From a virus: 45,942 bases of DNA. Position 1 is the stretch's first letter; every line of letters begins with the position of its first letter. Position numbers and translations under genes: made by a program. The DNA is taken from IMG/VR virus record IMGVR_UViG_3300031784_000057, positions 1-45,942 of that record; one strand, given 5' to 3'. Positions 1,951-29,440 of the stretch are shown one piece after another. Below the pieces are notes generated by a model, which was not told the origin of the DNA, made no database searches, and saw only the letters and a program-made list of their open reading frames with translations.

Positions 1951-3528
1951 TTATGGAGTTACTCTTCCCTCGCCTTTTGGATTTCTAGCCTCCCCAGAAA
2001 TATCTGGTGAATTTGAAGACCTTTCTTGAGTTCTAGTTCTGGTGTTGCCAGCCTGTGCTCTCTGCTCAGCCGCCTGTTGAGGTTTTAATACAACAACCTC
2101 ATCTCCACCCTCTAAAGGAACCATGCCTTTTCTAATTCTAATCTCGTTAGGGGTAACTACCTGCATTCTTAAATACCTCTCATCAATCTTTGACTGAGTA
2201 TCTTCGTCTGTTAATGTTAGTTCATTTAATTTAATAGCTAGGGCATCTGTCATTTCAGCAACCAATTTATTAATTTTCTTTTCTAAAATATCTTGGGCTG
2301 GTCGGCAAACCTGCTCCTTAAACATCTTATCTGAATCTCTTGCTGAAGCTAAATTAACTCCTTCTGGCAAACCAATTTTACTAATAGGGGTTCTGTGGGC
2401 TAGAAGGATCTCGTCTCTATTCATTTTGCGATAGTTATTGAATGAGGAGTCTTGTGCATCTGCCTCTACTGGCTCCATCTTAAACTCTACCTTTGAGTCT
2501 GGTGAGTCAGCTGGTAGTGGAATATATAGGGACCTATGGTTCTTTCCCTTTAATCCAACCTGGAAAAACTCAAGAAGCTTTCTTTCAGATTCTGCTGATA
2601 GCTTTGCTCCCTTAACAGTTACAATATATCTTGGGACTGCTTTATTTTCAAAATAATCAAGGTTGTACTTACCAGCAAATTCATTTCCAGCCATAGCATT
2701 AATTGCAGCTACAATATCTGGGATTCCATAATAATTGTTTGTTGGCGTGTATTTCTTTATATGAATAATCTCATTTGGTCTATCTTCTTGACCTGCGATT
2801 GGATTAGGCATTTCTGTGTCGCCAAAGTTTCTAAAGAATACAGCCTTACCATAAAGTAGTTGAACAAATCCATCACGAAGTCTACGAACACGCATTGTCT
2901 TTGCTGGAATATGTCCGATATATCCAATCTTTCCTGAGGTTGTTCTTCCTACTTCTAGGTACCCGTTTCCAGTGGCTTCAACATCTGTATAAACCTTAAT
3001 AAGTGTTTCAACAAATGTTTCCTCTTCATTACAATTTTCAAGCCATGCATCAAGATCTTGTCTTAATCTATTAAGCTTTCTTCTGGCTCTTTCTAACTGA
3101 GCGTCGCTATTAATCTCATCTAAAGTTTCTTTTGCTTTTCTTGTTTCTACAAAGTCATAACCTAGCCCTACAATATTAGCAACCTTTGCATTGATTGCTG
3201 CGTAGTTATAGGGAGATATTTCATATACCTTTGAAAGATAATCTAAATTAAATGGTGGCTCAATAAGATCAAATAAAGCATAACCAGTAATTGCTTGAGC
3301 TAACAAGTTCTGCTGTGTTTGCGCTCCATCTAATCCCGTAAAACGTTTCTGCAGATCTCTAGTCATTTTTCTTTTAAATGCTGGACTCAGTCCGTGAATC
3401 TTTTTTAAGTCTTCTCCCTGCATCTTAAATTCATCTGTTGTCTTTTCAATTGATACAGATGCAAATCTAGACAGGTCTGATGCTGTTGTTATTTGTACTG
3501 AGTTATCTTCTTCTTCAATAAAGTCCAT
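1951..3528 (-). CDS. Portal protein (PBSX/SPP1-like)
   Basis: 525 residues, a usual length for a portal. Recognisable blocks include LIEPPFNLDYLSKVYEISP followed by NYAAINAKVANIVGLGYDF near residues 90-125. Others are GNGYLEVGRTTSGKIGYIGH, IIHIKKYTPTNNYYGIPDI and LLAHRTPISKIGLPEG. It would form the dodecameric ring at the capsid vertex through which DNA is packaged. The Arg/Ser/Pro-rich C-terminus is probably disordered. Its ATG overlaps the preceding stop as TAATG, so translation is probably coupled. The protease and capsid genes follow. No terminase gene lies upstream, which is unusual. Confidence 0.88.
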   Translation of the reverse strand: MDFIEEEDNSVQITTASDLSRFASVSIEKTTDEFKMQGEDLKKIHGLSPAFKRKMTRDLQKRFTGLDGAQTQQNLLAQAITGYALFDLIEPPFNLDYLSKVYEISPYNYAAINAKVANIVGLGYDFVETRKAKETLDEINSDAQLERARRKLNRLRQDLDAWLENCNEEETFVETLIKVYTDVEATGNGYLEVGRTTSGKIGYIGHIPAKTMRVRRLRDGFVQLLYGKAVFFRNFGDTEMPNPIAGQEDRPNEIIHIKKYTPTNNYYGIPDIVAAINAMAGNEFAGKYNLDYFENKAVPRYIVTVKGAKLSAESERKLLEFFQVGLKGKNHRSLYIPLPADSPDSKVEFKMEPVEADAQDSSFNNYRKMNRDEILLAHRTPISKIGLPEGVNLASARDSDKMFKEQVCRPAQDILEKKINKLVAEMTDALAIKLNELTLTDEDTQSKIDERYLRMQVVTPNEIRIRKGMVPLEGGDEVVVLKPQQAAEQRAQAGNTRTRTQERSSNSPDISGEARNPKGEGRVTP

Positions 3529-3929: not shown

Positions 3930-5663
3930 TTAGATAGTTTGAATAACAACCCAGTCATTATTGTAATATTGTGGGGCTAATTCTGTCACGGTTATGGCTG
4001 GTTCTTGAATTACAGTGGAAGGCTTGCCAGTATAGCAATTATAGTGTTCTGTAACCAAGGCCTGGGTTAGCTCTTTTGTATAGATTGCTATATTTTTGTA
4101 TAAATTCTCATTTATAGAGCTATTGTTAAATGTAATTGAAGTGTCTATAGTGTTATTAAATACAATAACAATATGGTGTGGCTGCCCATCCACTAGCCAG
4201 GAGCTAATATTAGTTGCGGATGTTCTGTCAACACCGTTTACATATATTTTATTAATATTTAGCTTAGAGATAACTCCAGAACCATTCCAAGAGTATCCTG
4301 TAGAAGTTGCTGAAACTAGACCAAATTGGCCAGTACCATATGGGGTATAAAACATTTCTAGGCTTTTTACATCTGTTTCTGTAGTCAAGGTAAATGGAGA
4401 TACTGATCTAATGCCATTTGAATAGTTTCTTGAAAGAATAGGATAGTCTAAAGACCCTAAAGAATACTCAGAAGAAGAATGGATTCTGTCTCCAAAATTA
4501 TCTGCGTAATAGTCTTTGTTATTATAGAAGCTTACTGCAAAGAATGATAGTCTTGGATTAAATTTAGATACGTCTGTTGTGCCCATAGTAATCTCTACAT
4601 ACACTTTTCCAGAATTGCTGAATGAAGATTTTTTATATTGCGGCAAAGCTTCTCCATTTGTGCAATATTGCCAGTCCACACCATCTGCGCTTGACCTTAC
4701 AGATATACCTAAATCACTTCTCCACTCAATCTTAGAAGAAGACAGCCCTATTTCTGTAGGTATTGTAAATGAGTCTATGTATGTAAATGTTTTTGCAGTT
4801 GATGTGCCATCATTATAAAATGTAATATAAGAATTACTAATATCATAATAAACGTTTGTATCATCAGAAACATCTGACCATAGCCTGTTTTTTGGATAAG
4901 AGTATACAAATTGTGGTCTTATTTTCATATCATTTAAACTAAACAGTGTGCCACCGTCTGGGTATACAATTTGAATTGGGCTTTTTGATATGTTACCCTC
5001 AACATAATGTTTTTTAATTGATTCTTGTGATATCTGGTATCTATATATTGCTGGGGCATCGGCAATAAAGGAATCTTGAGAAAGTGTTGTTGGGCCTATT
5101 GCAAATAAGCTACTAGTGTTTGTAAACTTAAAATCTACCAATGGCTTTGTTCCAACCATAATACCATCAATATACAAAGAAAGAGAGGCTGGAGTATACA
5201 CGCCAACAATATGCATAGCTTTTTTTGAATAAACAATAGGGTAGGCTATTTCATTAGAGCTTGCAGAAACACGAAAAACTATATTGTTATTTTCCCAATA
5301 TAGTCCTATAAAATTTGAAGAGTCTGCGAGCAGCGGTACCGAGGATGTGCTAGATATGTAGTTTGAAGAAACCCATACTTCTAAAGAAAATGAGTTGTCT
5401 GAGGTATCTTTATTTGCTAAAGCTGAATTTACTGTGGATGCGTAATAGTTTTTGTTTACTGGCAGTGTTATATAAGATGTTGAAGTTATTTTATTTCCAG
5501 AAGATCCTCCTGGTACGATTGGAAGCATATTCCCTAATATGCCTCCAACGTATGCTCCATTATTATTACAACCAGATTTATCATATGCAATTGTGCCAGA
5601 GGTCTCGTCAAGCATCCAAAAGCCTATTGGATTATCTTTAATAACCTTTAGCTGATATGACAT
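3930..5663 (-). CDS. LamG/concanavalin-like virion adhesin
   Basis: 577 residues. The N-terminus (YQLKVIKDNPIGFWMLDETS then YDKSGCNNNGAYVGG) and the later SLEVWVSS, MHIVGVYTP and LYIDGIMVGTKPL are the usual signature of a LamG/jelly-roll carbohydrate-binding domain (about residues 5-215). A second, weaker copy lies near the C-terminus, with HHIVIVFNN and IAIYTKELTQALVTEHY (about 400-555). The middle is beta-rich. Such proteins are common as tail-fibre or head-decoration adhesins that bind surface glycans. It lies 3 bp after the 2-oxoglutarate oxygenase cluster and before the head genes. Binding specificity cannot be read from the sequence. Confidence 0.7.
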   Translation of the reverse strand: MSYQLKVIKDNPIGFWMLDETSGTIAYDKSGCNNNGAYVGGILGNMLPIVPGGSSGNKITSTSYITLPVNKNYYASTVNSALANKDTSDNSFSLEVWVSSNYISSTSSVPLLADSSNFIGLYWENNNIVFRVSASSNEIAYPIVYSKKAMHIVGVYTPASLSLYIDGIMVGTKPLVDFKFTNTSSLFAIGPTTLSQDSFIADAPAIYRYQISQESIKKHYVEGNISKSPIQIVYPDGGTLFSLNDMKIRPQFVYSYPKNRLWSDVSDDTNVYYDISNSYITFYNDGTSTAKTFTYIDSFTIPTEIGLSSSKIEWRSDLGISVRSSADGVDWQYCTNGEALPQYKKSSFSNSGKVYVEITMGTTDVSKFNPRLSFFAVSFYNNKDYYADNFGDRIHSSSEYSLGSLDYPILSRNYSNGIRSVSPFTLTTETDVKSLEMFYTPYGTGQFGLVSATSTGYSWNGSGVISKLNINKIYVNGVDRTSATNISSWLVDGQPHHIVIVFNNTIDTSITFNNSSINENLYKNIAIYTKELTQALVTEHYNCYTGKPSTVIQEPAITVTELAPQYYNNDWVVIQTI

Positions 5664-5666
5664 TTA

Positions 5667-6326
5667 CTATCCGTTAGCGTACCAGAACATAGGAATCATA
5701 ATTTTTTTACCTTGTCCTACTTCTTTTGATTCATGAATATAGTCTGATGTTGATGGGAAGAATAGGATACTTCCAGCTTCTGGCTTAATTCCTAAATCGT
5801 ATTCTGGGAAAATAATTTCTCCGCCTTCGTAATCATCGTTTACATAAACTACAGCAGAAAGCATAGTCTCATTGTCTGAGTCAGGATACATATCAAAATG
5901 AGCTCCCATTCCTACTCCAGTATTATACTTTTTAATAAAAAACGAGTCTTTTAAATATCCAATATTAACGGTGTCTGTATTAGCACAGTAATCTCTTGCT
6001 AAACTATCTAGGGCTTCCTTTAAAGACACAGCAATTGCTTTTGACTTAGAGTCATATTCAGAATATTCGTGTAGAACTTCTGTAAGGCCTGCTGGAGGAT
6101 TAAAGTTTCCTCTTCTAGACTCTCCAAAAATATCAGTCTCATCGTCACTAGATCTCCATGTTTCCCACGGACCAACCCACGAAGATTTAACACTATACTG
6201 CTCTTGGTATACGTCTAAGTCTTGAACTAACCCCTTTAATCCTGGGAGAGCATTCTTGTAATAAAGAATCTTATCTGCATATTTAATAAGACTGCTATCT
6301 GAATCTCTTTGTACTTCATCAACCAT
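5667..6326 (-). CDS. 2-oxoglutarate/Fe(II) oxygenase, prolyl-4-hydroxylase-like (copy 5)
   Basis: 219 residues. The C-terminal double-stranded beta helix carries the iron triad: H143 and D145 in GAHFDMYPDS, and H198 in DYIHESKEVG. K208 (KKIMIPMFW) is the expected 2-oxoglutarate carboxylate binder. The core YVNDDYEGGEIIFPEYDLGI is typical of the P4Hc group. The predicted reaction is hydroxylation of a prolyl or other peptidyl residue with O2 and 2-oxoglutarate. The start overlaps the preceding stop as TAATG. It is the last member, in transcription order, of a five-oxygenase array behind the FFxPP-repeat protein. Substrate is inference. Confidence 0.88.
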   Translation of the reverse strand: MVDEVQRDSDSSLIKYADKILYYKNALPGLKGLVQDLDVYQEQYSVKSSWVGPWETWRSSDDETDIFGESRRGNFNPPAGLTEVLHEYSEYDSKSKAIAVSLKEALDSLARDYCANTDTVNIGYLKDSFFIKKYNTGVGMGAHFDMYPDSDNETMLSAVVYVNDDYEGGEIIFPEYDLGIKPEAGSILFFPSTSDYIHESKEVGQGKKIMIPMFWYANG

Positions 6327-7075
6327 TATTCTTCTCCTTTTCCAATATAAATTGGAGCATTTCCAGATTCTTTATCCTTTGCCCATTGCTTATATTGCTG
6401 ATCTTGTTCTTTTCTAGTTCCAGCTAATTCTTCTGCCCAACGCTGTCTTTGCTCGTCTGTGTAAACATTTGCTGCGTCGTCCCAAAATGAACCTACTGTA
6501 TATCTTGTTTTATCTTTTACCATCGTAACTTCGTGTTCATTTCCAAACCCTCCTGCAAAGATAGCTATTAGTCCAACTTTAGGCTGAATAGAAATCTCGA
6601 AGTCTCTATAATTTAAAAGACCTCCTCCGAAGTCATCGTTTAAATACATAAACGCTGCGTATCTACTTCTTTCAAAAGCTGTGTAGTTTCCTTCATGATC
6701 TGTGTTATCTGAATGGAATTCAGCAAATGCTCCTGGAATCCACTTTTGTGCGTGATAGCTAATTTCATTCCACTTAATACCAAAAAGCTCTTCTCCAGCT
6801 TTTTTAATTCTTGATTTTAATCTTGGGAAATAATCTTCTGGCAAACCAAATTGTTCTAGGGCTTTATCTGAATCCCAAAACCCCATTGCAAAAGAATCAT
6901 AAAAAGAAATTTGATTCCATTCAAGTCTACCTGCTTCTGAAAGGTACTCTAGATATGCAATAATTTTTGTTGCTTCATCTGGAGTAATAAAATTTTCAAT
7001 AGTAAAGCAGTCGTCTTTCCAAACTTTAAGTCCAGGATACTTTACTTTTAAAGATTCTAAATTACCAACTGACAT
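6326..7075 (-). CDS. 2-oxoglutarate/Fe(II) oxygenase, prolyl-4-hydroxylase-like (copy 4)
   Basis: 249 residues from the ATG at 7075. A longer frame begins with GTG at 7087, but the AAAGGG ribosome-binding site abuts that GTG and is better spaced for the ATG. The iron ligands are H121 and D123 (FHSDNTD) and H181 (NEHEVTM), with R191 (TRYTVGSFW) for 2-oxoglutarate. FMYLNDDFGGGLLNYRDFEI is the P4Hc core. It overlaps the upstream oxygenase gene by 14 bp. It is one of five divergent paralogues, so each copy may have its own substrate or register. Confidence 0.87.
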   Translation of the reverse strand: MSVGNLESLKVKYPGLKVWKDDCFTIENFITPDEATKIIAYLEYLSEAGRLEWNQISFYDSFAMGFWDSDKALEQFGLPEDYFPRLKSRIKKAGEELFGIKWNEISYHAQKWIPGAFAEFHSDNTDHEGNYTAFERSRYAAFMYLNDDFGGGLLNYRDFEISIQPKVGLIAIFAGGFGNEHEVTMVKDKTRYTVGSFWDDAANVYTDEQRQRWAEELAGTRKEQDQQYKQWAKDKESGNAPIYIGKGEE

Positions 7076-7793
7076 GTTTTCTTTCACCCTTTAACTCTTT
7101 AATTGTCCAAAACCAAGGAGAAGTATATCTTGTACCAGATAGAACTTTATCTACACCATGAATATAGTACTTGTCTCCAGGGAAAAAATATACAGCTTTT
7201 CTTTTTGGTTTAAATGCTATCTGCTGTCTAGGGAAGTGTAACTCTCCTCCAGTATAGTCATCATTTAAATAAAATATTGTTCCTAGGTCATACCAAGGAA
7301 AATCATTTTCGGTTCCAGCATCTGGCCCCTCGTGTAGTTCTTTGTCAGCATGAGGGAACTGAAATGTGCCAACTGGCCATCTAACAATTGCTGGCTTGGT
7401 TGGTTCAGCATCAACTTGAAAGAACTCATCAATATATGGCTTAAACCTATTAATAATATTAGTAAGCATTTCTACAACTTTTGGGTCTGCCTTCATAAGA
7501 GTATTTAAAGTTGCAACTCTATTTTCCCATGGTCTATGATCATAGATGACTGTTCCATTTTCATTGTAGTGTGATTCTGTGACATCCCAAATTTTGTTTT
7601 CTCTAGCAAAATTTTCTAGGTAGTCACACTCTTCATCTGTTAGGAAATTTTCAATTTCACCAATCATAGACTTGTCTTCACCAAACCATCCAGAAGGCGT
7701 AATAGACTTTCTGGCTGTTCTAACATTCTTTCCATCCTCAAGTGCATCATAGTTTAATACGATGTCTGGATCTAAAGCGCTTTCAAATGCCAT
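7062..7793 (-). CDS. 2-oxoglutarate/Fe(II) oxygenase, prolyl-4-hydroxylase-like (copy 3)
   Basis: 243 residues. The iron triad is H148/D150 (FPHADKE) and H212 (YYIHGVDKV); R222 (TRYTSPWFW) should bind 2-oxoglutarate. IFYLNDDYTGGELHFPRQQI is the conserved core. The N-terminal half is helical with EIENFLTDEECDYLENF, a common start of P4H-like domains. It belongs to the same tightly packed array and lies between a DUF6065-like gene and two further oxygenases. Confidence 0.88.
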   Translation of the reverse strand: MAFESALDPDIVLNYDALEDGKNVRTARKSITPSGWFGEDKSMIGEIENFLTDEECDYLENFARENKIWDVTESHYNENGTVIYDHRPWENRVATLNTLMKADPKVVEMLTNIINRFKPYIDEFFQVDAEPTKPAIVRWPVGTFQFPHADKELHEGPDAGTENDFPWYDLGTIFYLNDDYTGGELHFPRQQIAFKPKRKAVYFFPGDKYYIHGVDKVLSGTRYTSPWFWTIKELKGERKHVSW

Positions 7794-7802
7794 TTTTATC
7801 TC

Positions 7803-8543
7803 CTATTCATAATTCTTTTTAACCCACGTTTTTCTTTTGTAAATCCCGCCAAACTTAACTCTATACTTTTCAACGACATTAGTATGTCTATCATACATTT
7901 GCCCATCAGTATAATGTATCATTTCTGAGCTCCAGTCTTCTCTTTTGATTGGAATTATCTGGGCAAACGGGGTTCCCTTAGGAATTAGTCCAGAAAATCC
8001 TTCTTTTAAGAAGAATGGCATCAATCCTGGCATAGGATATCTATCGCTATCAATTATACCGTTAACCGTTAAAAAAGGTAAATCGTATCTATTTAACGGG
8101 CTTACAACTAAAGCACTATATCCTTCTGGCAACTCAATACCCCAATTTGGCCACCAATGAAAATGCTTTTGGCTATATCCGTGAGGGATTGGAAATGTTG
8201 GCATGTCGCTTCTTGCCTGGCAAAACTCTTTATATTTTTGATCAATAACTACATGCGGTTCATTTTCATACTGAACAAACATTAAATCTGCTGGGGTTCT
8301 TAGAACATAGCCTGTAGAAAATATGTCTAAAAGTGCTGGGCATGCCTTAAAACCTAAAGACTTTTCTTCTTCATCATCTTTATTGTAAGATGCAATAATA
8401 GGCTCTCCGTCACCATTTAACCAATACAAAGTTGCATCTTTCCACCAATTAGGCATAAAACTTTTAGCTGGGCTAGGGAGGAGATCTTTTTGTTCTGGCT
8501 CGTTACAGTATGGTCTTGCTGATCCGAATTTAATTTTTGGCAT
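7803..8543 (-). CDS. DUF6065-related protein of unknown function
   Basis: 246 residues from the ATG at 8543. The longer frame starts with TTG at 8549, but GAAGG is spaced 9 bases from the ATG. Visible features are FMPNWWKDATLYWLNGDGE, KACPALLDIFSTGYVLRTPADLMF, a His/Trp cluster (KHFHWWPNWG) and GTPFAQIIPIKREDW. The order resembles the neighbouring DUF6065-like protein: an internal FRT/LRTP strand, then a G-x-PF-x-x-IP strand near the C-terminus. The two are probably distant paralogues with a single beta-rich fold. The function is unknown; position inside an oxygenase array suggests a linked role. Confidence 0.6.
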   Translation of the reverse strand: MPKIKFGSARPYCNEPEQKDLLPSPAKSFMPNWWKDATLYWLNGDGEPIIASYNKDDEEEKSLGFKACPALLDIFSTGYVLRTPADLMFVQYENEPHVVIDQKYKEFCQARSDMPTFPIPHGYSQKHFHWWPNWGIELPEGYSALVVSPLNRYDLPFLTVNGIIDSDRYPMPGLMPFFLKEGFSGLIPKGTPFAQIIPIKREDWSSEMIHYTDGQMYDRHTNVVEKYRVKFGGIYKRKTWVKKNYE

Positions 8544-9249
8544 TATCAATAACCTTCAATCTTATATTTTTAACTTCATGTTCTCCAAGTTTATTGCCTA
8601 AATAATCTACGCCATTTCTATAAAAATTAGTCCATTCTTTTTTTACAGCATACTCAGATACTGTTTTAATATGATCAGTATCATTATATAAATGATCATA
8701 CGGTCCTTTAGGCATATCTTTTTTATTTTTTATAATAACCTCAGAATTATTTATTTGTTTTAAAGAAATTGGAATAAGCGTAATAAATGGATGTCCTGCT
8801 GGAATTGTTATTGCTACTCCTGGCTTAGTTATTTTCCAAGCAACTGGGAATTCTGCAGTGAACCAAGATGTACTAATAACAGTTGTAAATGCTTGTGTGC
8901 CATCAATAAACATATTTGGGGTTGGCATACCAATCATACTTACATCTTCTTCTGTTCTAAATATCAACCCAGTTTTAAAACTTATTGTTCCATTTGCTCT
9001 TTCAGTATATACATACTTATTGCCAGTTAAAACTTTAACATGGTCTGGCTTAGAGTCAGATTGTCCGTCCCAAATAAAAGTAATATCTTCTGGAAAAGAC
9101 AATCCAAACCCCAAAGAGTTTGTAAGCGTTACTGGAAAACAACTGTATGCATGCCTTTCATGAGTCATCTCCATCCAGTCTCTTTTAACTGGTAGCTGTG
9201 CTATGTCTGCAGCATTTTCAGATGCTTTGTATACATCTATTTTATACAT
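8530..9249 (-). CDS. DUF6065 family protein
   Basis: 239 residues from the ATG at 9249. A TTG-initiated longer frame begins at 9273. The motifs RDWMEMTHERHAYSCFPVTL with TNSLGFGL, GLIFRTEEDVSM, VISTSWFTAEFPVAWKITKPG and GHPFITLIPISL follow the DUF6065 pattern as I know it. No biochemical role is established for the family. It overlaps both neighbours, so it is part of one coupled operon with the oxygenases. A structural or substrate-presenting function for the modification enzymes is a guess from context only. Confidence 0.65.
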   Translation of the reverse strand: MYKIDVYKASENAADIAQLPVKRDWMEMTHERHAYSCFPVTLTNSLGFGLSFPEDITFIWDGQSDSKPDHVKVLTGNKYVYTERANGTISFKTGLIFRTEEDVSMIGMPTPNMFIDGTQAFTTVISTSWFTAEFPVAWKITKPGVAITIPAGHPFITLIPISLKQINNSEVIIKNKKDMPKGPYDHLYNDTDHIKTVSEYAVKKEWTNFYRNGVDYLGNKLGEHEVKNIRLKVIDNAKN

Positions 9250-9937
9250 AGCCCTCTGTGTATCTTTTTTCAATGTCTCTATAGTCTGGAGTGTGCGGAG
9301 CCTCTAGATAGTCAAGCATAGTGACAATAGAATATTTTGTTCCAGATTTAACTGGCATCGCTGCGTGTGAGTAAATATATGATGAAGGGAAAAGGTATAG
9401 GTCTCCAGCTTTTGGCTTAAAAGTTAAACCAAGCTTGTCAAAATGAAGTTCTCCTCCCTCATAATCATCATTAATATAGCCAACAGATGAAAGAACACAA
9501 ATATAAGAATATCCGTGATCTGAGTGGACCTGGAAGTGTTGATCTTTGCCATACTTAACAAAGTTAAATGATTCCCAATAGTTTAATGGAGCAAGGCCAA
9601 ATACCTTTCTGTACTCTTCTACTGGGCCTTCTTGTGCTTTTTTAGAATCTAAATAAATAGATCTTAAGGCATCTTCTGCTGGGCCTTGTTTATTTTTGTC
9701 TACATAATTAAAATGTAACATTAGGCTATCGTCGCTATTGACCTTGACTTTAAAGTCATGTGCATCACGATATTTTAGGTCAGTGTTTGCATATCCAGTT
9801 TGAGCCTGGTTCCACTTATACTTGGAGTCACTTGTAGCAAGAGCTCCTTCTAGCCTGTTAATAAGATCTAAATTGTTAAAAACATTTCTGTATACAACAA
9901 TTCCATGATATAGATATTCTGCATTAGCTGAAAACAT
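9242..9937 (-). CDS. 2-oxoglutarate/Fe(II) oxygenase, prolyl-4-hydroxylase-like (copy 2)
   Basis: 231 residues. H138 and D140 (QVHSDHGYSYI), H191 (YSHAAMPV) and K201 (TKYSIVTMLDY) form the iron and 2-oxoglutarate sites. The core is YINDDYEGGELHFDKLGLTF. It is clearly the closest paralogue of the next upstream oxygenase: both have W-N-[DQ]-A-[EQ] near residue 45, YRDx-KDF near 60, DHGYSY and TMLDY. It is coupled to that gene by a 1-base TAATG overlap. A recent duplication is likely. Confidence 0.9.
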   Translation of the reverse strand: MFSANAEYLYHGIVVYRNVFNNLDLINRLEGALATSDSKYKWNQAQTGYANTDLKYRDAHDFKVKVNSDDSLMLHFNYVDKNKQGPAEDALRSIYLDSKKAQEGPVEEYRKVFGLAPLNYWESFNFVKYGKDQHFQVHSDHGYSYICVLSSVGYINDDYEGGELHFDKLGLTFKPKAGDLYLFPSSYIYSHAAMPVKSGTKYSIVTMLDYLEAPHTPDYRDIEKRYTEGYV

Positions 9938-10593
9938 TATTTACCTCCTAGGTATTTGTTTTTTATAAATTGCTCGTATTCATCTGTATGAGTATAGTCA
10001 TTATAATCTAACATTGTTACAAAAGAGTATTTTACACCAGATTGTACTGGCATTGCAACATGTGAAAATAAATATGTCGATGGGAATATATATAGGTCGC
10101 CCTCTTCTGGCTCAATATTTATACCCAGTTTTGGGAAATATAGACTCCCGCCCACATAATCTTTATTTGGATACCCTACCAAAGATACTGTGGAAACATA
10201 TGAATATCCATGGTCTGCATGCTCTTTAAAGTATTGGTTAGGTCCATATTTAACAACATTAATCCATTCACAAAAATCCATTTTAATATTATAAAAATTA
10301 CAATATTCTTTTACTGCTGGATCCTGTAATTCTAATATGTCTTTCCAAACTTGATCAAATACTAATGTATATTCATCTGCAGGTTGATTTTCAAATCTTC
10401 CCAATTTAAAATCTTTGCAGTCACGATAATCTTTTATAATGTCGTCATGCCCAACTTCGGCATCATTCCATTGATATTTACCGTTGCTGTCTTGAATAGC
10501 ATTTTCTACTGTGCTAATAAGATTTGGCTTTTTTGTAAATACATTACTATATTTCCAGAGGCCAGGAAAAATTTCTTGTTTTTGATAAGACAT
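9937..10593 (-). CDS. 2-oxoglutarate/Fe(II) oxygenase, prolyl-4-hydroxylase-like (copy 1)
   Basis: 218 residues. H125 and D127 (KEHADHGYSYV) and H178 (FSHVAMPVQ) are the iron ligands; K188 (VKYSFVTMLDY) should hold 2-oxoglutarate. It begins only 17 bp after the FFxPP-repeat/Hint protein ends and is the first of five oxygenases. A short TAGG ribosome-binding site precedes the ATG. The adjacency makes the proline-rich repeat protein the obvious candidate substrate, though that is inference. Related enzymes are common in cyanophages, where their role is also unsettled. Confidence 0.9.
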   Translation of the reverse strand: MSYQKQEIFPGLWKYSNVFTKKPNLISTVENAIQDSNGKYQWNDAEVGHDDIIKDYRDCKDFKLGRFENQPADEYTLVFDQVWKDILELQDPAVKEYCNFYNIKMDFCEWINVVKYGPNQYFKEHADHGYSYVSTVSLVGYPNKDYVGGSLYFPKLGINIEPEEGDLYIFPSTYLFSHVAMPVQSGVKYSFVTMLDYNDYTHTDEYEQFIKNKYLGGK

Positions 10594-10610
10594 ATGCCTA
10601 CTTTATCATT

Positions 10611-12485
10611 TTAGTTTGGATTAGTCAACATATGTGTTGGGCATCCATTATAAGCAAGCATTCCCCCAGCAATCATCATTCCATAAGGCTCTCTGTAGAA
10701 CAAAAGAACTTCTGTATCTTCTCTATGTTCCTTTAGATTAGTTATCATCTCATGAACCAGTATGCCATCTTCAAAAACAATAATATAATCTCCAACCTTA
10801 AGATCTTCTATTGTTTTAATAACATATTTATCGTGAGAGTAAGATAAGATATCTTCTTTTGGAGAAAACCTCTTCTTAGGATCTCTGTTAATAATAATAA
10901 TTTTCTCACAAGGATCTGTTACAATATTAGTAATAGTGGATTCAACTAATGTGTAATTTTCTAGCTCGTCTACGTTCCAAGCTTTTACTATAGTAGAACA
11001 CTCTTCTGTAACATCACCGACTGTACAGTTTGGATCTCCATGAGTAAGGTTATCAAAATTCAAAGTAGAAACTTTGTCTCCAACCTTTAAATCTTTTGCT
11101 TTTATATAACCAGATGGAGTTAGAATCGGAGTATTTTTATCGATACAAAATCTTGGCGGAGCAAAGAATCTTGGAGGGCCAAAGAAGAATGGCGGACCAA
11201 AGAATCGTGGTGGCCCAAAGAACGATGGCGGACCAAAGAACGATGGTGGACCAAAGAAGAATGGTGGACCAAAGAATCTTGGAGGGCCAAAGAACGATGG
11301 TGGTCCAAAGAAAAATGGCGGAGCAAAGAATGCTGGTGGGGAAAAGAATCCTGGAGGCCCGAAGAATGCTGGAGGTCCAAAGAATGCTGGAGGTCCAAAG
11401 AATCGTGGTGGCCCAAAGAAAGATGGTGGCCCAAAGAACGATGGTGGGCCAAAGAAGAATGGCGGACCAAAGAATCCTGGCGGAGCAAAGAATTGTGGTG
11501 GGCTAAAGAATGCTGGTGGAGAAAAGAAAGTCGGTGGGCTAAAGAATGCTGGTGGAGAAAAGAAAGTAGGTGGGGAGAAAAATTGTGGTGGAGCAAAGAA
11601 CCTTGGTGGAGAGAAGAATGCTGGTGGTCCAAAGAAGCTTGGTGGGCTAAAGAATGTTGTTACTGGGGATGTCTCCATAAAGTTTGAAGTACCATTAGCA
11701 TTAATAGCATAAACTTTATATCTTTGAGTAGTTCCCCCAGTTTCTGATATTGTATATGGAGAAGTAACATTTAAATATGTTGGTCCAGGCTGACTGTCTG
11801 TGTGGTCTGTGAACTTACCATCTTGTAATGGTACATTTCCAGAATTAGGAACAGTTAAGGTAATTGTATTTCCATTAATAGCCTGTACAGCAGCATTTGT
11901 TCCAATTCCAGTTCCAGTAACTGTATTTCCAACAACAATTCCAATATTATCACTTACTGTAATTGTGCTTTGTCCAGATGATCCAGAAATCTGCTTAGAA
12001 ACGGACTTTGGAAGCTGTGCAGTAGTGTCGGTAGAAACAATTGTGTATGATGTAATTGGCTTTCCACCATCTTCTAAGGGGGCAGACCAAGTAACCGTAT
12101 CTTGATCTGCTACAGTTGAAGACGCTGTTGCAAATCTAGGTGTATTAGGAACTGTTGTAGCTGTAATTTGATTAGAAGCAGCAGACGATATAGATGTACC
12201 ATTATTATTTGATGCGGTTGCTGTAAATGTGTACTGAACATTACTTTGTAAACCTTGTACAATTATAGGAGAAGATGTACCAGCACCACTAAAGTTTCCA
12301 GGTGTAGAAACTATGTTAAATGAAGTTGGTACAGAGCTAAGAGGATTTACGGTAAAGCTAATAGAAGCAGATCCATTGTTAAATGCTCTATTAGTTCCAA
12401 CATCTGTAGCTACTAAATTTTCAGGTGGTAACGGCTTTTCATAGTCGCCTACTGCTGAAGATTTTCTACCAGTTTTTTTAGCCAA
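10611..12485 (-). CDS. FN3 - (FFxPPx)28 repeat - Hint autoprocessing protein
   Basis: 624 residues with a TTG start at 12485, chosen because TAGGAG lies 6 bases upstream. Residues about 17-272 form two fibronectin-III-like domains (ENLVATDVG; VTWSAPLEDGGKPITSYTI). Residues 278-445 are 28 uninterrupted hexapeptides FF[GSA]PP[x]. Residues 447-624 form a Hint/intein-like domain: Cys447 starts CIDKNTPILTPSGYIKAKDL, a candidate block-B His is H551 (SYSHDKYV), and it ends MIAGGMLAYNGCPTH. Asn613 is followed by Gly, not Cys/Ser/Thr, so splicing is less likely than N-terminal cleavage or transesterification after the repeat. It lies between fibre genes and prolyl-hydroxylase-like genes. It is probably a virion or fibre component. 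Confidence 0.85.
   Translation of the reverse strand: MAKKTGRKSSAVGDYEKPLPPENLVATDVGTNRAFNNGSASISFTVNPLSSVPTSFNIVSTPGNFSGAGTSSPIIVQGLQSNVQYTFTATASNNNGTSISSAASNQITATTVPNTPRFATASSTVADQDTVTWSAPLEDGGKPITSYTIVSTDTTAQLPKSVSKQISGSSGQSTITVSDNIGIVVGNTVTGTGIGTNAAVQAINGNTITLTVPNSGNVPLQDGKFTDHTDSQPGPTYLNVTSPYTISETGGTTQRYKVYAINANGTSNFMETSPVTTFFSPPSFFGPPAFFSPPRFFAPPQFFSPPTFFSPPAFFSPPTFFSPPAFFSPPQFFAPPGFFGPPFFFGPPSFFGPPSFFGPPRFFGPPAFFGPPAFFGPPGFFSPPAFFAPPFFFGPPSFFGPPRFFGPPFFFGPPSFFGPPSFFGPPRFFGPPFFFGPPRFFAPPRFCIDKNTPILTPSGYIKAKDLKVGDKVSTLNFDNLTHGDPNCTVGDVTEECSTIVKAWNVDELENYTLVESTITNIVTDPCEKIIIINRDPKKRFSPKEDILSYSHDKYVIKTIEDLKVGDYIIVFEDGILVHEMITNLKEHREDTEVLLFYREPYGMMIAGGMLAYNGCPTHMLTNPN
11151..11654 (-). repeat. 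28 tandem 18-bp units encoding FFxPPx
   Basis: Exactly 504 bp = 28 x 18 bp, in frame with no interruption. Every unit encodes Phe-Phe, then Gly, Ser or Ala, then Pro-Pro and one variable residue (S, A, R, Q, T, G or F). Ser-type units cluster at the N-terminal end and Gly-type units dominate later. Third positions vary although the encoded pattern is strict, pointing to selection on the protein. Length variation by slippage is expected. Confidence 0.97.
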
Positions 12486-12494
12486 TTTTTACTC

Positions 12495-13007
12495 CTATGA
12501 AGTAAGGTCTCCAAATACTACCCAAGTATTTGCATTTCTTTTTAAAATAGTCACGATTGACCATTGGGTTCTAATCTTTAATCCAGGGGTTCCATTTAAA
12601 ACAACTCCGTTACCAGGAACTATTGTTGTCTGTCCACTGTTTGACTGCAAAACATCAATTGTAGTTCCAATTGGATATGTTAAAGCAGCTGAATCAGCTG
12701 GAATTGTTAATGTATTTGCAACAGTCATATTCATTTCAATAAGACCGTCTCTAAGATCTGCTCTATCTAAAGTATAGTTTGAAAATGTTGGGAATATGGT
12801 TGTTATCGATGGGACGCCAACTTTCGTCATTGTCCCATCTGATAACACCATTGATCCACCATGGCTAGCATCCATGGTCATAGTACCAACAACTCTGATG
12901 TTTCCACCAAGTGTTACTTGACCATTAAAGCCAGCCTCGTCTGAGACTGACAATGTCTTTGTTGCTAATTCAGCGTTATAAGGTATTCGAGCCTTATTAA
13001 TAGACAT
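12495..13007 (-). CDS. Putative virion/fibre-associated protein
   Basis: 170 residues; strong AGGAGG site before the ATG. The N-terminus (NKARIPYNAELATKTLSVSD then GQVTLGGNIRVVGTM) resembles the repeated beta-strand modules of the neighbouring fibre genes. The C-terminus (TIDVLQSNSGQTTIVPGNGV then KIRTQWSIVTILKRNANTWV and VFGDL) matches a terminal beta-barrel often seen on cyanophage-like fibre proteins, based on general style. It sits 18 bp from the 1005-residue structural protein. Probably a small fibre or accessory tip; no enzyme motif is visible. Confidence 0.6.
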   Translation of the reverse strand: MSINKARIPYNAELATKTLSVSDEAGFNGQVTLGGNIRVVGTMTMDASHGGSMVLSDGTMTKVGVPSITTIFPTFSNYTLDRADLRDGLIEMNMTVANTLTIPADSAALTYPIGTTIDVLQSNSGQTTIVPGNGVVLNGTPGLKIRTQWSIVTILKRNANTWVVFGDLTS

Positions 13008-13024: not shown

Positions 13025-16000
13025 TTAAGCCTGTGCCTCAGTCCATGATAGACGAGAGAACACGGTTGCTGTTTGTGAACCTAGATTTGTTACAGTAATA
13101 TGTAGTACGTCTGGTCCATCTGGGTAAATATTCTGTGTAGTAGTAGTTCCACCACCACCAAGAATTGAGTTACCAAGATCACGCAGTGAGCTTAAATCAA
13201 CAGAGTTTGTTCCTTGAGAGAAGAATCCACCTGTTGTTTCACCGCCAGATAATGTAGCTGACTGTCCAGCATAATCTGCAATTTGTGCAAGTGATGAGTT
13301 AACTACACCAGAAGCATTACCAACTGCATTTGTCCAGTTAACACCGACGCTTGGTAAACCGTTCAAAACTGCAGATACAAGAACTGTTGGAGTACCTGTT
13401 CCAGATGCAGCTGTAATATCTAGAGCCTTTAATGTAAGCTGCATTCTATTTACAGTTTCACGAGCACCAAATGCTGCTCCAATACCATTATCTGCTGAAG
13501 GTGCGTTTCTAATTCCAAGAAGTACTCTTGTTGCACCAGCTGGCACTGATAAAGCGGTTCTCTGTCCATATGTAAAGATAAGAGACTTATCATCATCAAA
13601 TCGACCATCCATGATTACAGAAGTACCCCAGTGTGAAATTGAAGATCCAAATGTTGGATATAGCAACTCACAAATTGTTGGTGCAGTTGAACTCCATGTA
13701 AACTGAATTGGAGATGTGACTCCCATTGGAGCAAATGTAACTACTGGATTATTGTTTGCTGCTGGTCCACTAAAGGTAATTTGTGTTCCATTGATTGCAG
13801 AAATATATGTTCCGTCTGGGAAGTCTTGGCTAACAACCTGCATACCTATTTGCAAAGTATTAGCATCTGCTGGGTTTGCCAATGTTCCCTTATTTCTTCC
13901 AGCATTAATTGTTAGTCCTGCGTAGGAACCAATTCCAGCTCTTGCTCTGGTTAGACCAGTAAACGAAGTTGCTGTTTTTGCTGAGTAGTTAACGTATTCA
14001 TAATTGTTATTATCTCTAATAACAATAGTTCCGCTGGCAGGGAACTTAGATGTATCTGCTACCTGAATTGCCAAATCTGTTGACAACAATGTAGCTGTCA
14101 TGTTTGTATATGGAGGCACTGTTGTTGAGCTATATCGTCCAGGCAAGTTACCTGAGCGCATATAAGCTTCGGTATTAACGTTATTGTTTTGCATCTTGTG
14201 CAAATAAATAATGTCTCCCTTAGGTCCTCTTACACCCCAACGGATAAATCCTGCTCCGTACCATGTGTAGTCTACATAGAACATCTGCATCTTTGATAGG
14301 TCCATTGTATATTGTGATGGTCCTGTTCCGTCTGCCTTATCCATGTTAAACTGATCTTGAGGAATTCTTGTATCAACTGTCTTAGATGCAATACAGTATT
14401 GTGATGTTGCACCTCTGTATGCTGGGGTAATCTTAAGGGCTGTATCATCAATGATTCTATCTACCTTATAAGACTGTCCTCTAAGAACAATATAATCTCC
14501 AGGAATTAACTGCTTGTTAAAGTATGTTCTAAATGTTCCGTCTGTCTGGCTAACTGTGTCATCACCATTTGTTACGGTAACTCTACCAGATAGCTGGAAT
14601 GTTGAGCTTCTGCGAACTGCCCAAAGCTTTTGTCCATCATACTCAAAGAAAACACCATTTTGGTCATCAAATAAACCAAGTCTATTCTGGCAACCATACC
14701 AACTTACAATAGAAGCATAGTAATTACCAGAAGCAACTCCTGATGAAGGTGTTGTTAGTGCTGTGTACTCAAAGGAATTAAATCCAGTAATGTCGGTAAT
14801 TGTAAATGTACCGTTATATGCTGTTTCATTACACCCACCAATTGCAATTACTGTTCCTGGTTGAATGTTGTGCTTTTCTTTTGTATAAACAGTTACTGTT
14901 GTTCCATTTGAAGTAATTGAATCAATTCCAGCATAAGGCTTCATAATGGTACCTGAAGATGCCTGGATTCCCTTACCTGACTGATATCTGAAATAACGAC
15001 GTGTTTGACGAACTGCTGCTGCGTAGTTAGATCCAGAATTTGTTGAGAAAATAACTCCACCATCTGCTGGTCTATGCAAGAACACTGACTGAGGTCTTAC
15101 ATAAATTTCAATTGGTCCAGTTACGGTTCCTGTTGGAATTGCTGCTGCGAAGTATACGAATCTTGTTGGGCTTAGAATTTGTGCGACTGTAAAGTTACCA
15201 TTAGGAGCATTTGTAGTAGCTGTTGCACCAGTCACAACAATTTCATTTCCAATAGACAATCCGTGTGAAATAGTTGTTGTTACATCAATTCTAGTACCAC
15301 TGTAAGATATTACTGGAATAAAGCCAATTCTTGAACCAGAAAATCTTGATGCGGTGTAGATTGCTGTCTTGTTTGTATCTAAAATGCTTGTAATGTTGGT
15401 GTTATTTTTTGCAGCTGCGCTATAAACAAAGGTTGAAGTTCCTCCTCCGCTTTCTACAACAAAGTTTCCATTTGCTGCCTGAAGGTATGTATCCTGAACT
15501 GTAATAGCCTGTCCGTTTGCTGGACCTACACCAGATGTTAAGCTTACTGTCACATTTTGTGAACCAGTTGGGAATGTAATAGATCCAACATTTGGAACTG
15601 GTGTTGCGTTAGCATACGCAAATGGTCTATTGTTATATAGACCAAGATTTTCCCACTTAGTAATCTGAGTACCGTACTCAAAGTCAGTATCAATTAGAGA
15701 CTGTGGCTGTGTAACACGGAACTTGTTGGTTGTATCCATCAATGTTTCTGCTGGTCTGAATGTCTCATCAAACTCATCAATTGTAATTGACAGCTTATCT
15801 GTTGTAAGCATTGATGCTGTATTGTAGTTTAGTACAATTGTAGTTAATTCTGTACCATTTGCTTCAACCGCTGTATAGGTTGTAGCATTTAAGCTTGGAT
15901 CAGAGAAATTATATATGACCTGATTTTGGGTCACATTTGTAATCAAAAGCAATCTTTCTCTTGGAATTGCTTTTGGAATTGTAATTGTTCTTGTGGTCGG

Positions 16001-16042
16001 TGTAAATGTATACGCCGTTTCCATTATAACTTTTCTTGCCAT
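13025..16042 (-). CDS. Large virion structural protein (cyanophage-like)
   Basis: 1005 residues. The N-terminal part (RTITIPKAIPRERLLLITNV with QNQVIYNFSD, and TTNKFRVTQPQSLIDTDFEY with GTQITKWENLG) resembles a structural protein that I associate with T4-like cyanophages. The middle has repeated beta motifs such as ITVQDTYLQAANGNFVV and IVVTGATATTNAPNGNFTV, and YTWYGAGFIRWGVRGPKGD around residues 560-600. No catalytic motif is evident. It lies inside the fibre block, so a long baseplate or fibre-linked structural protein is the best call. Possession of this gene in a phage with PBSX-like head genes suggests exchange with marine or freshwater phages. Confidence 0.65.
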   Translation of the reverse strand: MARKVIMETAYTFTPTTRTITIPKAIPRERLLLITNVTQNQVIYNFSDPSLNATTYTAVEANGTELTTIVLNYNTASMLTTDKLSITIDEFDETFRPAETLMDTTNKFRVTQPQSLIDTDFEYGTQITKWENLGLYNNRPFAYANATPVPNVGSITFPTGSQNVTVSLTSGVGPANGQAITVQDTYLQAANGNFVVESGGGTSTFVYSAAAKNNTNITSILDTNKTAIYTASRFSGSRIGFIPVISYSGTRIDVTTTISHGLSIGNEIVVTGATATTNAPNGNFTVAQILSPTRFVYFAAAIPTGTVTGPIEIYVRPQSVFLHRPADGGVIFSTNSGSNYAAAVRQTRRYFRYQSGKGIQASSGTIMKPYAGIDSITSNGTTVTVYTKEKHNIQPGTVIAIGGCNETAYNGTFTITDITGFNSFEYTALTTPSSGVASGNYYASIVSWYGCQNRLGLFDDQNGVFFEYDGQKLWAVRRSSTFQLSGRVTVTNGDDTVSQTDGTFRTYFNKQLIPGDYIVLRGQSYKVDRIIDDTALKITPAYRGATSQYCIASKTVDTRIPQDQFNMDKADGTGPSQYTMDLSKMQMFYVDYTWYGAGFIRWGVRGPKGDIIYLHKMQNNNVNTEAYMRSGNLPGRYSSTTVPPYTNMTATLLSTDLAIQVADTSKFPASGTIVIRDNNNYEYVNYSAKTATSFTGLTRARAGIGSYAGLTINAGRNKGTLANPADANTLQIGMQVVSQDFPDGTYISAINGTQITFSGPAANNNPVVTFAPMGVTSPIQFTWSSTAPTICELLYPTFGSSISHWGTSVIMDGRFDDDKSLIFTYGQRTALSVPAGATRVLLGIRNAPSADNGIGAAFGARETVNRMQLTLKALDITAASGTGTPTVLVSAVLNGLPSVGVNWTNAVGNASGVVNSSLAQIADYAGQSATLSGGETTGGFFSQGTNSVDLSSLRDLGNSILGGGGTTTTQNIYPDGPDVLHITVTNLGSQTATVFSRLSWTEAQA

Positions 16043-16047
16043 TTACT

Positions 16048-19000
16048 TTACGCTCCTAATAATATATCTATCGGTCTGAACGGGTACTGATATTTCTCTA
16101 CAGAGTTTACAGTTGGTCCGTTCATCACTCTTCCGTCGAATACCGACCCCTTAGGAACTGGTTCGCCAAAGTTAAGGTACCCATCAGAATCTACGTAGAA
16201 TCCATCAAAAGGAATCGGTGATAACCAGTGGTTATCAGGATTTCCTAGTATTTGAATTATACCATTGATGGATATCAAAAGTCTAAGTGGGTTTGTAATC
16301 GATAAAATCTGATTATCGTATTTAGGCTGAAACCTAGACCTAGATCCATCAAATTGACTATTTATGTTATCTAAAGGAATAATATCTTGCGCCTTTGAAT
16401 CAACATATCCCTTAGTAGCAGCATGGGTGTCTGCTGTAGGGGTAGGAACCGTTACGGAACCAGTAAATGTTGGTGAAGATAGATTTGCCTTTAAATTCAG
16501 AGCAGTAGCCAACCCTGAAATCTTAGATTGATCAATTGCTGCAGATGCACTAATTTCTGTATTTGTAATTGTTCCAGAAGCAATTTTAATTGCTGTAACA
16601 GATCCGTCTGCAAGCATATTTGTAGTTATTGTTGAATTTGGCAATATAACTGTGCCAGTAAATGTTGGGCTAGCTAGGGGTGCTTTAAGACTTAAAGCAT
16701 TTGTAATTGTAGTAGCATAGCTTGAATCATTTCCAAGAGCTGCCGCCAATTCATTTAAAGTGTTAAGTGCCCCTGGTGCTCCATTAATTAAGCTAGTAAT
16801 TGCACCAGTAACGAATTCAGTTGTAGCAATTTGAGTTGTGTTTGTATTTGCTAAGGCTGTTGGGGCTGTTGGAGTTCCAGTTAACGCTGGTGAACTAATT
16901 GGAGCATATGTAGATGCCGCAATTGTTGAGCTTAGCTTGCTATTTATTTGATCTTGAATTGATGATGTTACTCCATCAAGATATCCAATTTCTGTAGAAG
17001 AAACATTTCCAATTGTTGTATTTGTTGGAAGTGTTGCGCTATCAAATATAACGGCATCTGTTGCGTTGGCCTTTGAAGCAATTGCATCTTCTAGGCCTAC
17101 TATAGAGGTAATTGCAATATCGCTACCAAGCTTATCATTTGTTACTGCACCGTTTGCAATTTTTTCAGTTGTAACAGAACCATTTGTTGGAGTTCTAGTA
17201 TCTGAAAGTCTTGCGTCATTGGTGTAAACTAAATTTGCTGTATTTGATATTCCATGAACATCTGTTGTATCTAGGTTATGAGTAGATACCGCTCCAGTTG
17301 CAAAAGTTTCTGCTGCTCCCTGAGCAGAGTTAGCTGCTGTTGTAGCAGAGTTGTCTGCATAAGTTTTTGTAGCAAGGTCTGCTGTATTTGCTATTCCGTG
17401 TACATTTGTTGTATCTAAATTATGAGTAGATATCTCTGATGTAACATAAGAATGTGTTGCAAGAACTGATGTATCTGGGATACCATGTACAGAAGTTGTA
17501 CTGTTGTTATGGTTATTAACAGATGTAGCAATTGCCTGATTTCTTGCAATAACTTCTTGACCAATTTCATAGTTAGCATGGTCTATAGCGTCATTCTTTG
17601 CATCAAGAATTTCTTGATTAAGTGTTGCGCTTAAAGATAATATTTCACCGTCTGTGTAAGTATTTGCATTTGATTCAGCTTGATTTGCAGCAGCAGACAC
17701 ATCTGAATCTGTTGCTAAAAGGGCTGTGTCGGCAATTCCGTGAACACCCATTGTGTCTAGATTATGTGAATCTATCTGGTCTGCTATTTCTCCATCAACA
17801 TATGTAAATGTTGTTAGCTGGCTTGTATCAGCTATACCATGAACGTTGGTTGTGTCTGCTTCATGTGAAGAAAGAGCCTGGGAAGATGAAAGAGCTAGGT
17901 CAACAATGTCCTGACTTAAACTTGAGTCTAGTCCAGATATTGCTGTTTGTAGGTCATCTAAATAAACTATAAGTGATGTATCTGGAATGCCGTGAATATT
18001 GGTTGTGTCTGCTCTATGTGTTTCAATAGATATATCAGAATAGTCTGTATAATCAGCAATTAGTTGTGCTTCTACGGAAGAAAGATCTGCTTGATATACA
18101 AGATTAGCTGTATCAGATATTCCGTGAACATTCTGTGTAACATTTTTGTGTGATGTAATTGCTGAAGCAACGTGTGGCTCAGATGCTATAGCATAATTGT
18201 TTGTTCCGCCATCTCCAGAATATGTCCACTTATCTAATGTTTCATTCCATAAAAGAAGTGCGTCTGGCTGATTTCCTCTTTTAACTATTAAACCATAGCT
18301 TCCAGAAGGCTCTCCTGTAGCATCGCTATTTGCAACAAAGCCATTAAGAGATAATACATCACCAGAAGAATTTATTGCGGCAACTCCATCTAAAGAGTTT
18401 CTGTCTGCAACAGGGATGTAGTCATCTACTGTGTTTGATAAATCACTAGGGGTTACGTTTATATAAGGTAAAGCAGCCCATGTTTGAACTCCGTCACCTA
18501 GTTTAAAGTTTCCAGTATCGGATTCTAGTCCTAGCTCTCCAACTCTTAATACATCAGTTCCAACCCAAGAAGATGAAATCTTAGATGTAAACTTTCCAAG
18601 ATTATTTTTATTAATACCAAATAATTCATCGCTACTTAAAACTTCTGTTTCATTGATCATGTATACCTTGCCAGTATGTAGATCAAAGTTTTCAGAAGAA
18701 GTCCAAGCATCTGTAGCATCGTACCAAGCTAAGTGCTTATCTGTGGTTCCATGAAGGAATATACCTCCGCCATCTGATGCTGCATCTGTAGGGGTAGCTG
18801 TATTTCCAAGCTCAATTAATTTATCTGTAATTGCTAAATTTTGAGAAGTAATTGTTGTAGTGGTTCCCTGTACAGTAAGGTTTCCAATAATTGTTGCATC
18901 TCCTCCAACTTGAAGGTCGTCTGCAATATGTACTGTATCTGGCAAACCAATTGTAACATTGGCACTTTCGGATCCTGAGCCAGTCACTTCAATTTCATTA

Positions 19001-20979: not shown

Positions 20980-21274
20980 TTGCGCCACCTCCATCAATTG
21001 AATTATCTATAAATACTGAATTTATGTTTTGTGAATCTGCAAAGATTCTATTGTCGTCTACATAGTTTGAATATTGAACTTCTTCCACATATCCAGAACC
21101 TTCGTGACTGTGCTCCAAGATATTCTTTGGTCCCGCAACATCGTACCAAATTGTTCCGTTATAAGCCTTTATTGTTTCTTCAGCTGTATCGTAATAAATT
21201 TGACCACGAATTGGATTTACTGGAGGAGTCTCCAGAGTAGCCAATTGTATAGGGGTTAGAAATCTTTTTGCCAT
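20969..21274 (-). CDS. Small fibre-associated protein
   Basis: 101 residues. The start ([20 protein letters not shown] then PIRGQIYYDTAEETIKAYNG) is a shorter paralogue of the N-terminal module of the 492-residue fibre just upstream: both have TPPxxPxxGQIYY and NG-T-x-W. The rest is acidic and ends in Gly-rich GGGASGN. Its stop overlaps the GTG start of the giant fibre, and its own start overlaps the previous stop (TAATG), so the three are coupled. It may be an adaptor or a fibre N-terminal piece split off from a larger gene. Confidence 0.65.
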   Translation of the reverse strand: MAKRFLTPIQLATLETPPVNPIRGQIYYDTAEETIKAYNGTIWYDVAGPKNILEHSHEGSGYVEEVQYSNYVDDNRIFADSQNINSVFIDNSIDGGGASGN

Positions 21275-29230: not shown

Positions 29231-29440
29231 ATGAAGATACAAGTGGTATCTGAATATCTTACTCTAGCGAGAGAAGGTCTTGTTCCTGGAATTGAATGTC
29301 CAATGGATCAAGGCCTTCTCTTCTGTAACCAAGATTTAGAAGACAATATATTTTTTTATTGTATTTCCTGTAATTATAAGAATTACATAGGAATTGAAGT
29401 TTATAACAATCTAGAAAAGATAGTAAATGGCAATAGGTAA
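29231..29440 (+). CDS. Small zinc-ribbon-like protein
   Basis: 69 residues with a GGAG site. C23 and C32 (ECPMDQGLLFCNQ) and C44 and C47 (YCISCNY) could form a small zinc ribbon. The pattern resembles short phage proteins placed next to modification genes, but no family was recognised. It overlaps the glycosyltransferase start by 14 bp, so the two are probably coupled. Confidence 0.65.
   Translation: MKIQVVSEYLTLAREGLVPGIECPMDQGLLFCNQDLEDNIFFYCISCNYKNYIGIEVYNNLEKIVNGNR

Follow-up and report, generated by a model that had tools for sequence, protein, structure and literature searches.

Prolyl 4-hydroxylase and related oxygenases in viruses

The prolyl 4-hydroxylase of PBCV-1, a chlorovirus of eukaryotic algae, is A085R. 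That enzyme was reported together with viral Pro-rich peptides (Eriksson 1999, as cited in PMC7019647 and PMC9301287); PMC7019647 describes it as active, without an assigned role or known virion substrate, and gives hydroxyproline as not detected in virions. One survey states that what viruses do with prolyl 4-hydroxylase "remains cryptic" (PMC9301287). Genes for this enzyme and for 2-oxoglutarate (2OG) oxygenases are frequent in aquatic phages without having been explained. The present analysis concerns the viral record IMGVR_UViG_3300031784_000057 (45,942 nucleotides, the whole of which is called the window), in which a gene for a protein with FFxPP repeats is followed by five genes for 2OG-Fe(II) oxygenases. 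Whereas PBCV-1 has one enzyme, three to eight are found here beside a dedicated repeat protein, and the viruses are tailed phages. We consider it probable, from sequence comparisons, that this protein is a tail-associated fiber and that a dedicated set of several enzymes hydroxylates its Pro-Pro repeats.

The 2OG-Fe(II) oxygenases of phages and cyanophages have been proposed to act in DNA repair or in 2OG metabolism and signaling (PMC3037559), and structural annotation of phage 2OG oxygenases has revealed a likeness to EGLN3, with no substrate named (PMC12774648). The cyanophage enzymes (phrog_61 and others) belong to the same superfamily and, as here, occur several per genome, but the function ascribed to them is DNA repair or 2OG metabolism and not fiber modification. 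For one window enzyme, a tblastn search of the phage collection returned only distant, partial matches.

In collagen, the formation of 3-hydroxyproline precedes that of 4-hydroxyproline. Enzymes resembling prolyl 4-hydroxylase (P4H) and prolyl 3-hydroxylase (P3H) beside Pro-Pro pairs recall this system by analogy, since a P4H and P3H set on Pro-rich repeats would follow a similar logic, and the unit FFxPPG contains PPG. However, the phage repeat protein is without Gly-X-Y triplets, and phage collagens are not enriched for oxygenases of the PF13640 family. The mastigoneme is an extracellular hydroxyproline-rich filament (PMC11015965); the likeness to the hydroxyproline-rich glycoproteins of plants and algae, extensins and mastigonemes, is by analogy only, the window protein being a phage protein with no secretion signal seen. 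A literature search for FFxPP, FPPFFPP and DUF6065 (a family encoded within the cluster) found no relevant description among the matches listed, which is weak evidence of absence as subscription journals were mostly not covered.

Anatomy of the repeat protein and its gene cluster

All genes of the cluster are on one strand, and neighbors either overlap or are separated by no more than 17 bp. The features of the cluster, and the parts of the repeat protein, are as follows.

10611..12485 (-): aromatic-Pro-Pro repeat protein, 624 aa; FN3-FN3, 28 FFxPPx units, Hint-fold C-terminus
11655..12485 (-): its N-terminal part, aa 1-277, FN3-like domains (PF00041, 2.9e-5)
11151..11654 (-): 28 perfect FF[GSA]PPx hexapeptides, aa 278-445, proposed hydroxylation substrate (re-reading of the open reading frame, ORF)
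10614..11147 (-): Hint-fold C-terminal domain from Cys447, catalytically degenerate (AlphaFold2 model; active-site census)
9937..10593 (-): prolyl 4-hydroxylase-like 2OG-Fe(II) oxygenase of group A, the first gene downstream of the repeat gene (PF13640, 2.2e-9)
9242..9937 (-): 2OG-Fe(II) oxygenase, second group A copy (PF13640, 1.3e-12)
8530..9273 (-): DUF6065 protein, module marker, dUTPase-like beta-clip fold (PF19541, 1.3e-35; fold search)
7803..8549 (-): phrog_7084 protein, divergent DUF6065 relative (phrog_7084, 2.8e-29; alignment)
7062..7793 (-): 2OG-Fe(II) oxygenase, group B (nearest solved structures P4H and prolyl 3-hydroxylase 1)
6326..7087 (-): 2OG-Fe(II) oxygenase, group C (nearest solved structure prolyl 3-hydroxylase 1)
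5667..6326 (-): 2OG-Fe(II) oxygenase, accessory group (PF13640, 8.3e-11; in the tree common to L001 only)

An earlier note on this DNA had described 28 hexapeptides with 56 Pro residues between FN3-like domains and a Hint domain starting at Cys447, and five 2OG oxygenases with intact sites in one cluster; this anatomy is confirmed. The ORF starts with TTG, with AGGAG 5 bases upstream. The hexapeptide count is exact, the units are contiguous, and position 3 is occupied by Gly in 16, Ser in eight and Ala in four. At the DNA level there are 23 different 18-nt sequences among the 28 copies, the codons for Phe and Pro differing synonymously only while positions 3 and 6 are free to vary, which indicates constraint at the protein level and not recent slippage or fresh tandem expansion. 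The protein has hexapeptides and no GXY run of the collagen type, and no solved structure matching the repeat itself was found. The FN3 match covers two stretches before the repeats at 24.6 bits (PF00041 cut-off, 25); hydropathy revealed no transmembrane-like stretch in aa 1-277.

All five oxygenases score above the PF13640 cut-off (28.4-48.9 bits versus 27), and by reading the HxD...H...K/R residues, that is the iron triad and the 2-oxoglutarate residue, are intact in each. One of the five also has a weak Tet_JBP match. The DUF6065 and phrog_7084 genes inside the cluster were absent from the earlier note. The idea that DUF6065 is another oxygenase was rejected, its model resembling dUTPases only (query TM-score about 0.38); a search for DUF6065 in cellular genomes gave only two matches.

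Co-occurrence of repeats and oxygenases

The repeat family was gathered from the viral collection by searching with a degenerate DNA pattern that encodes three FFxPP units in a row, which gave at least 120 matches. The carriers are uncultured phages, mostly from lake water, with the repeat protein beside several oxygenases. PF13640 was present in all 50 FFxPP viral records examined, 48 of them above the family cut-off, at 1 to 15 copies per record (median 6). Among 45 random viral records picked by a neutral 14-mer it was present in 13, with 1 to 3 copies where present and a median of 0 overall (Fisher p = 3.7e-15). Near the FFxPP ORFs 330 of 348 oxygenases lie downstream on the same strand, the nearest at a median of 67 bp.

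The reverse test started from DUF6065 and used 49 loci in which 3 kb or more of upstream DNA was available; a few of their contigs were also in the forward set. An ORF with aromatic and Pro repeats is found in 49/49: 38 are FFxPP, and the other 11 have a different repeat at the same place behind the same FN3-type N-terminus. FPPFFPPHFPP accounts for most of these, with FFPPGFFSPP, FPYFPPFF and PNFCPAFCP in single cases. Between two and eight oxygenases are present in every locus of this set.

A same-lineage test drew on 25 loci whose portals are related and whose upstream DNA extends for 9 kb or more. An oxygenase array is present in three of them, one being the window's near-identical twin, and each of the three also encodes a Pro-Pro repeat protein; in L395, a portal relative with an array, the repeat is PAPPDFT (five copies) joined to a Hint domain. 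The remaining 22 have neither array nor Pro-Pro repeat protein, and one of them has a single oxygenase (p = 4e-4, twin included). It is highly improbable that the two genes are linked by shared ancestry only, as passengers of one freshwater lineage with no functional connection. A common portal family in 26/36 records speaks for that view, but relatives whose portals are 77-82% identical lack both together, the repeats are under protein-level constraint and the enzymes keep their active sites. Since repeat and array come and go together, shared ancestry alone is no explanation, and their nearly constant joint gain and loss suggests that these phages modify their own fiber chemically.

Collagen-repeat phages carry PF13640 at background level, in 10/49 with Pro at Y and 16/49 with Pro only at X, which ties the array to aromatic and Pro repeats and not to repeats in general. 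The co-occurrence in related phages by which the earlier note had proposed to check its idea is thus strong in the forward, reverse and same-lineage comparisons and against the collagen and random controls.

A general rule linking Y-position Pro in collagen to oxygenases was rejected by this dedicated scan (Y-Pro 10/49, X-Pro 16/49, random 13/45). The idea had arisen from L326, with Y-Pro collagen near a 2OG gene, and from four phages with X-Pro only, three of which are array-less portal relatives. The collagen of L326, a 230 kb viral record, has 77 Y-position and two X-position Pro in 180 triplets, and that of L431 has 368 and none in 600; both are very long phage collagens, and each of the two records encodes a 2OG oxygenase as well.

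The array might instead modify another target, such as host proteins, nucleic acid bases, the sugars of LPS or teichoic acids, or another tail protein, with the late operon merely in common. PF13640 is functionally broad, phage 2OG oxygenases have been read as enzymes of DNA repair or of 2OG and nitrogen signaling (PMC3037559), and the weak Tet_JBP match would also fit. We nevertheless regard this as unlikely, as the repeat-less portal relatives are without an array, the array persists when the repeat type changes, and collagen-repeat phages are without arrays.

Three conserved enzyme groups

The enzyme tree and census covered 30 non-redundant modules and the window, 31 in all. Group A, the first behind the repeat gene, is present in 31/31 modules, group B in one copy in 31/31, and group C in 29/31. 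The order repeat-A-(A)-DUF6065-(phrog_7084)-B-C is common to the FFxPP and FPP types. The HxD/E..H..R/K residues are kept in 279 of 282 relatives and are invariant in alignments A4, A5 and A6. Profile searches of solved structures matched group A (3.2e-7) and group B (1e-5) to prolyl 4-hydroxylase, and group C (1.6e-8) and group B (1.6e-5) to prolyl 3-hydroxylase 1. The group B profile also matched two designed proteins, probably spuriously. The likeness of the conserved groups to prolyl 4- and 3-hydroxylases favors Pro as the target, and groups A, B and C are candidate prolyl hydroxylases on grounds of similarity. As to the earlier proposal that the oxygenases serve the repeat, the association and the P4H and P3H likeness support it, whereas hydroxylation itself is a prediction.

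Several points weigh against hydroxylation of the Pro-Pro repeats. Clade support for group A is poor (0.075), membership of PF13640 does not tell which residue is modified, and the matches in the Protein Data Bank (PDB) are distant and partial. Only about 30 modules are non-redundant, the loci being metagenomic and partly redundant, and most belong to one broad phage lineage, as the common portal family indicates, so that they do not count as independent cases. In the repeats Phe varies hardly more than Pro, and the L317 type has mostly single Pro, so that the modified residue could also be Phe or a different one.

One version of this last thought takes the repeat as the substrate but has mainly Phe modified, by beta- or ring hydroxylation, or else a residue of the FN3 or C-terminal parts, Pro being structural. 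Phe is indeed present in every repeat type seen, and an Asp/Asn beta-hydroxylase occurs in some modules. Against this, among solved structures the three conserved groups come closest to prolyl 3- and 4-hydroxylases, and Pro-Pro pairs are kept in nearly all repeat types, which leaves a Phe target very unlikely in our estimate.

Variation within the repeat family

Among the matches listed there are 96 different arrays, which have between 4 and 35 units each and 1182 units in total. Position 3 is Ala, Ser or Gly in 95 percent of the units and position 6 is most often Gly (553/1182), making FFxPPG the commonest unit. What follows the repeats varies: a Hint domain, a Hint-like domain without Cys, Cys-rich peptides, short tails such as FGSRFIRSY and FK, or, in a single case, Peptidase_S74. 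Short tails without Hint were found in 33 of the 122 FFxPP ORFs among the matches listed, others are Cys-rich, and eight are Hint-like without Cys.

Cys-rich tails such as CSFNCPYGTYCDNGKCIG take the place of Hint in L008, L020, L038, L080, L106 and L114 and are possibly disulfide-linked or binding tips. In L317 (5648-6508, +) an FN3 protein that is typical in other respects and lies near oxygenases has the repeat variant PNFCPAFCPAFCP, which contains Cys and single Pro. Genes for a sulfotransferase and an Asp/Asn beta-hydroxylase lie between the repeat gene and the array in L048 (3803-5072, -), with similar ORFs in L060; in L022 (6107-7205, -), a module with Hint without Cys, a weakly GNAT-like gene and an uncharacterized one take that position. 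The repeat protein, DUF6065 and the FN3 N-terminus had no match in 50,697 isolated-phage records, in a search where low-complexity filtering hides repeats.

The Hint domain

The C-terminal part of the window protein opens with FCIDKNTPIL, which includes Cys447. Its Pfam Hint_2 match is below threshold (18.2 bits versus 28.4), and the fold is backed by an AlphaFold2 model (pLDDT 91.5) with 54 matches in the PDB at E<=0.001, of which the best 50 of 54 are all intein, bacterial intein-like (BIL) or Hedgehog structures. The likeness to these proteins thus comprises the fold and a Cys at position 1; the differences are that the window domain is without the block-B His and the terminal HN, and that the domain is optional in the family. 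Among 31 aligned Hint domains, position 1 is Cys in 26, Cys447 included, and Ser in four, and a C-terminal Asn is present in 25. The window has Glu at the block-B His position (SPKE), the aligned column holding His in 6/31, and ends in YN with Gly at +1, a position with Cys, Ser or Thr in 1/31. In only 2/31 is Cys1 accompanied by both the Asn and a His in the aligned block-B column; in L096 and L007 a His lies one column further on.

The earlier note had the Hint domain cleave at Phe446/Cys447 and perhaps pass the stalk to another molecule through the thioester. The confident fold and the frequency of Cys1 and of the C-terminal Asn speak for such an activity. The window's Glu, YN and Gly, the scarcity of complete active sites, the subgroup without Cys1 and the many Hint-less repeat proteins point the other way, and the event as described is distinctly unlikely. 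Because Hint-less members are common and the active site is degenerate, obligatory self-processing is improbable, and covalent linkage through the thioester finds no support. Hint-mediated processing was rejected as a general core function; the domain appears to serve mainly as a folded cap at the C-terminus, with its origin in an intein-like fold, and not as an obligatory autoprotease.

Tail setting

The cluster is flanked by the following genes.

16048..20997 (-): large tail fiber protein with Mtd_N domain (PF18454, 4.8e-22)
13025..16042 (-): virion structural protein (phrog_5838)
12495..13007 (-): small tail protein, upstream of the repeat gene and related to minor tail and collagen-like proteins from phages of actinobacteria
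3930..5663 (-): LamG-like protein, whose gene belongs to the backbone and adjoins the module (PF13385, 1.3e-10; phrog_11584)

The repeat gene comes after the Mtd_N tail fiber gene and the minor-tail-like gene. In L016 (9634-10284, -) FFxPP repeats are fused to a Peptidase_S74 intramolecular chaperone, from which it follows that the repeat can belong to a tail fiber. The position among tail fiber genes, the FN3 domains and this fusion in a relative support a tail location for the protein.

Proposed maturation of the stalk

From the association, the intact catalytic residues and the tail neighborhood we infer that the repeat would be the substrate, Pro the modified residue and the virion the likely location of the product. 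The repeat protein, with an FN3 base, an FFxPP rod and a variable C-terminal cap, would be made late with the tail fibers. Its Pro-Pro pairs would be hydroxylated by the co-translated 2OG-Fe(II) oxygenases inside the infected cell before lysis, group A and probably B in a prolyl 4-hydroxylase-like manner, and group C, possibly also B, in a prolyl 3-hydroxylase-like manner. DUF6065 and phrog_7084 proteins are probably accessory factors, which might for example present the substrate. The role of the modification may be to give a stiff, polar polyproline-type stalk reaching out from the virion, possibly decorated further by glycosylation or sulfation.

We see about an even chance that this is a widespread, undescribed system, in which a cytoplasmic P4H and P3H relay with a DUF6065 factor matures a virion aromatic-Pro-Pro stalk with interchangeable repeats and caps. 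Such a relay would be, by analogy, the bacterial-virus counterpart of collagen or extensin maturation. Phage prolyl hydroxylases would gain a likely target, and since the candidate substrate is repetitive and easily recognized and three enzymes are conserved, the question of what they do becomes directly testable. If true, this would be, within reach of the literature search, the first description of a cassette dedicated to hydroxylating the protein of a bacteriophage fiber, and a possible source of compact prolyl hydroxylases expressible in bacteria.

Lineage and neighboring genes

The window portal (1951-3528) is 59 percent identical to those of Streptomyces phages of the Stanwilliamsviridae, which suggests actinobacterial hosts for the window; searches with T4-type portal and DNA polymerase A gave no match. 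Gene order in Jay2Jay is glycosyltransferase, ribonucleotide reductase, HNH, LysM, gp50, gp51 and portal. The window has the same frame, with the block of tail fiber, repeat and oxygenase genes between the positions of the reductase and of gp50-gp51-portal, and by position and size its LamG-like gene is the probable counterpart of Jay2Jay gp50. Three portal matches (G022 C1:1507-2946, G041 and G048) contain in-frame TGA, TAA or TAG, which may reflect open match ends or recoding.

The module-less portal relatives L416, L398 and L407 have a tryptophan halogenase at the same site (PF04820, 6e-107 in L416). In L416 (1128-2699 and 2704-3402) a phrog_7084/DUF6065-like gene lies directly behind the halogenase, and proteins of the DUF6065 type may work together with several kinds of oxidative tailoring enzyme. 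Collagen GPT repeats also occur at the module site in halogenase-bearing portal relatives. The window further encodes three glycosyltransferases, of the Gb3_synth type, group 1 and GT61 (24769-25572, -; 27587-28573, -; 29427-30587, +), which could decorate hydroxylated residues or the host surface.

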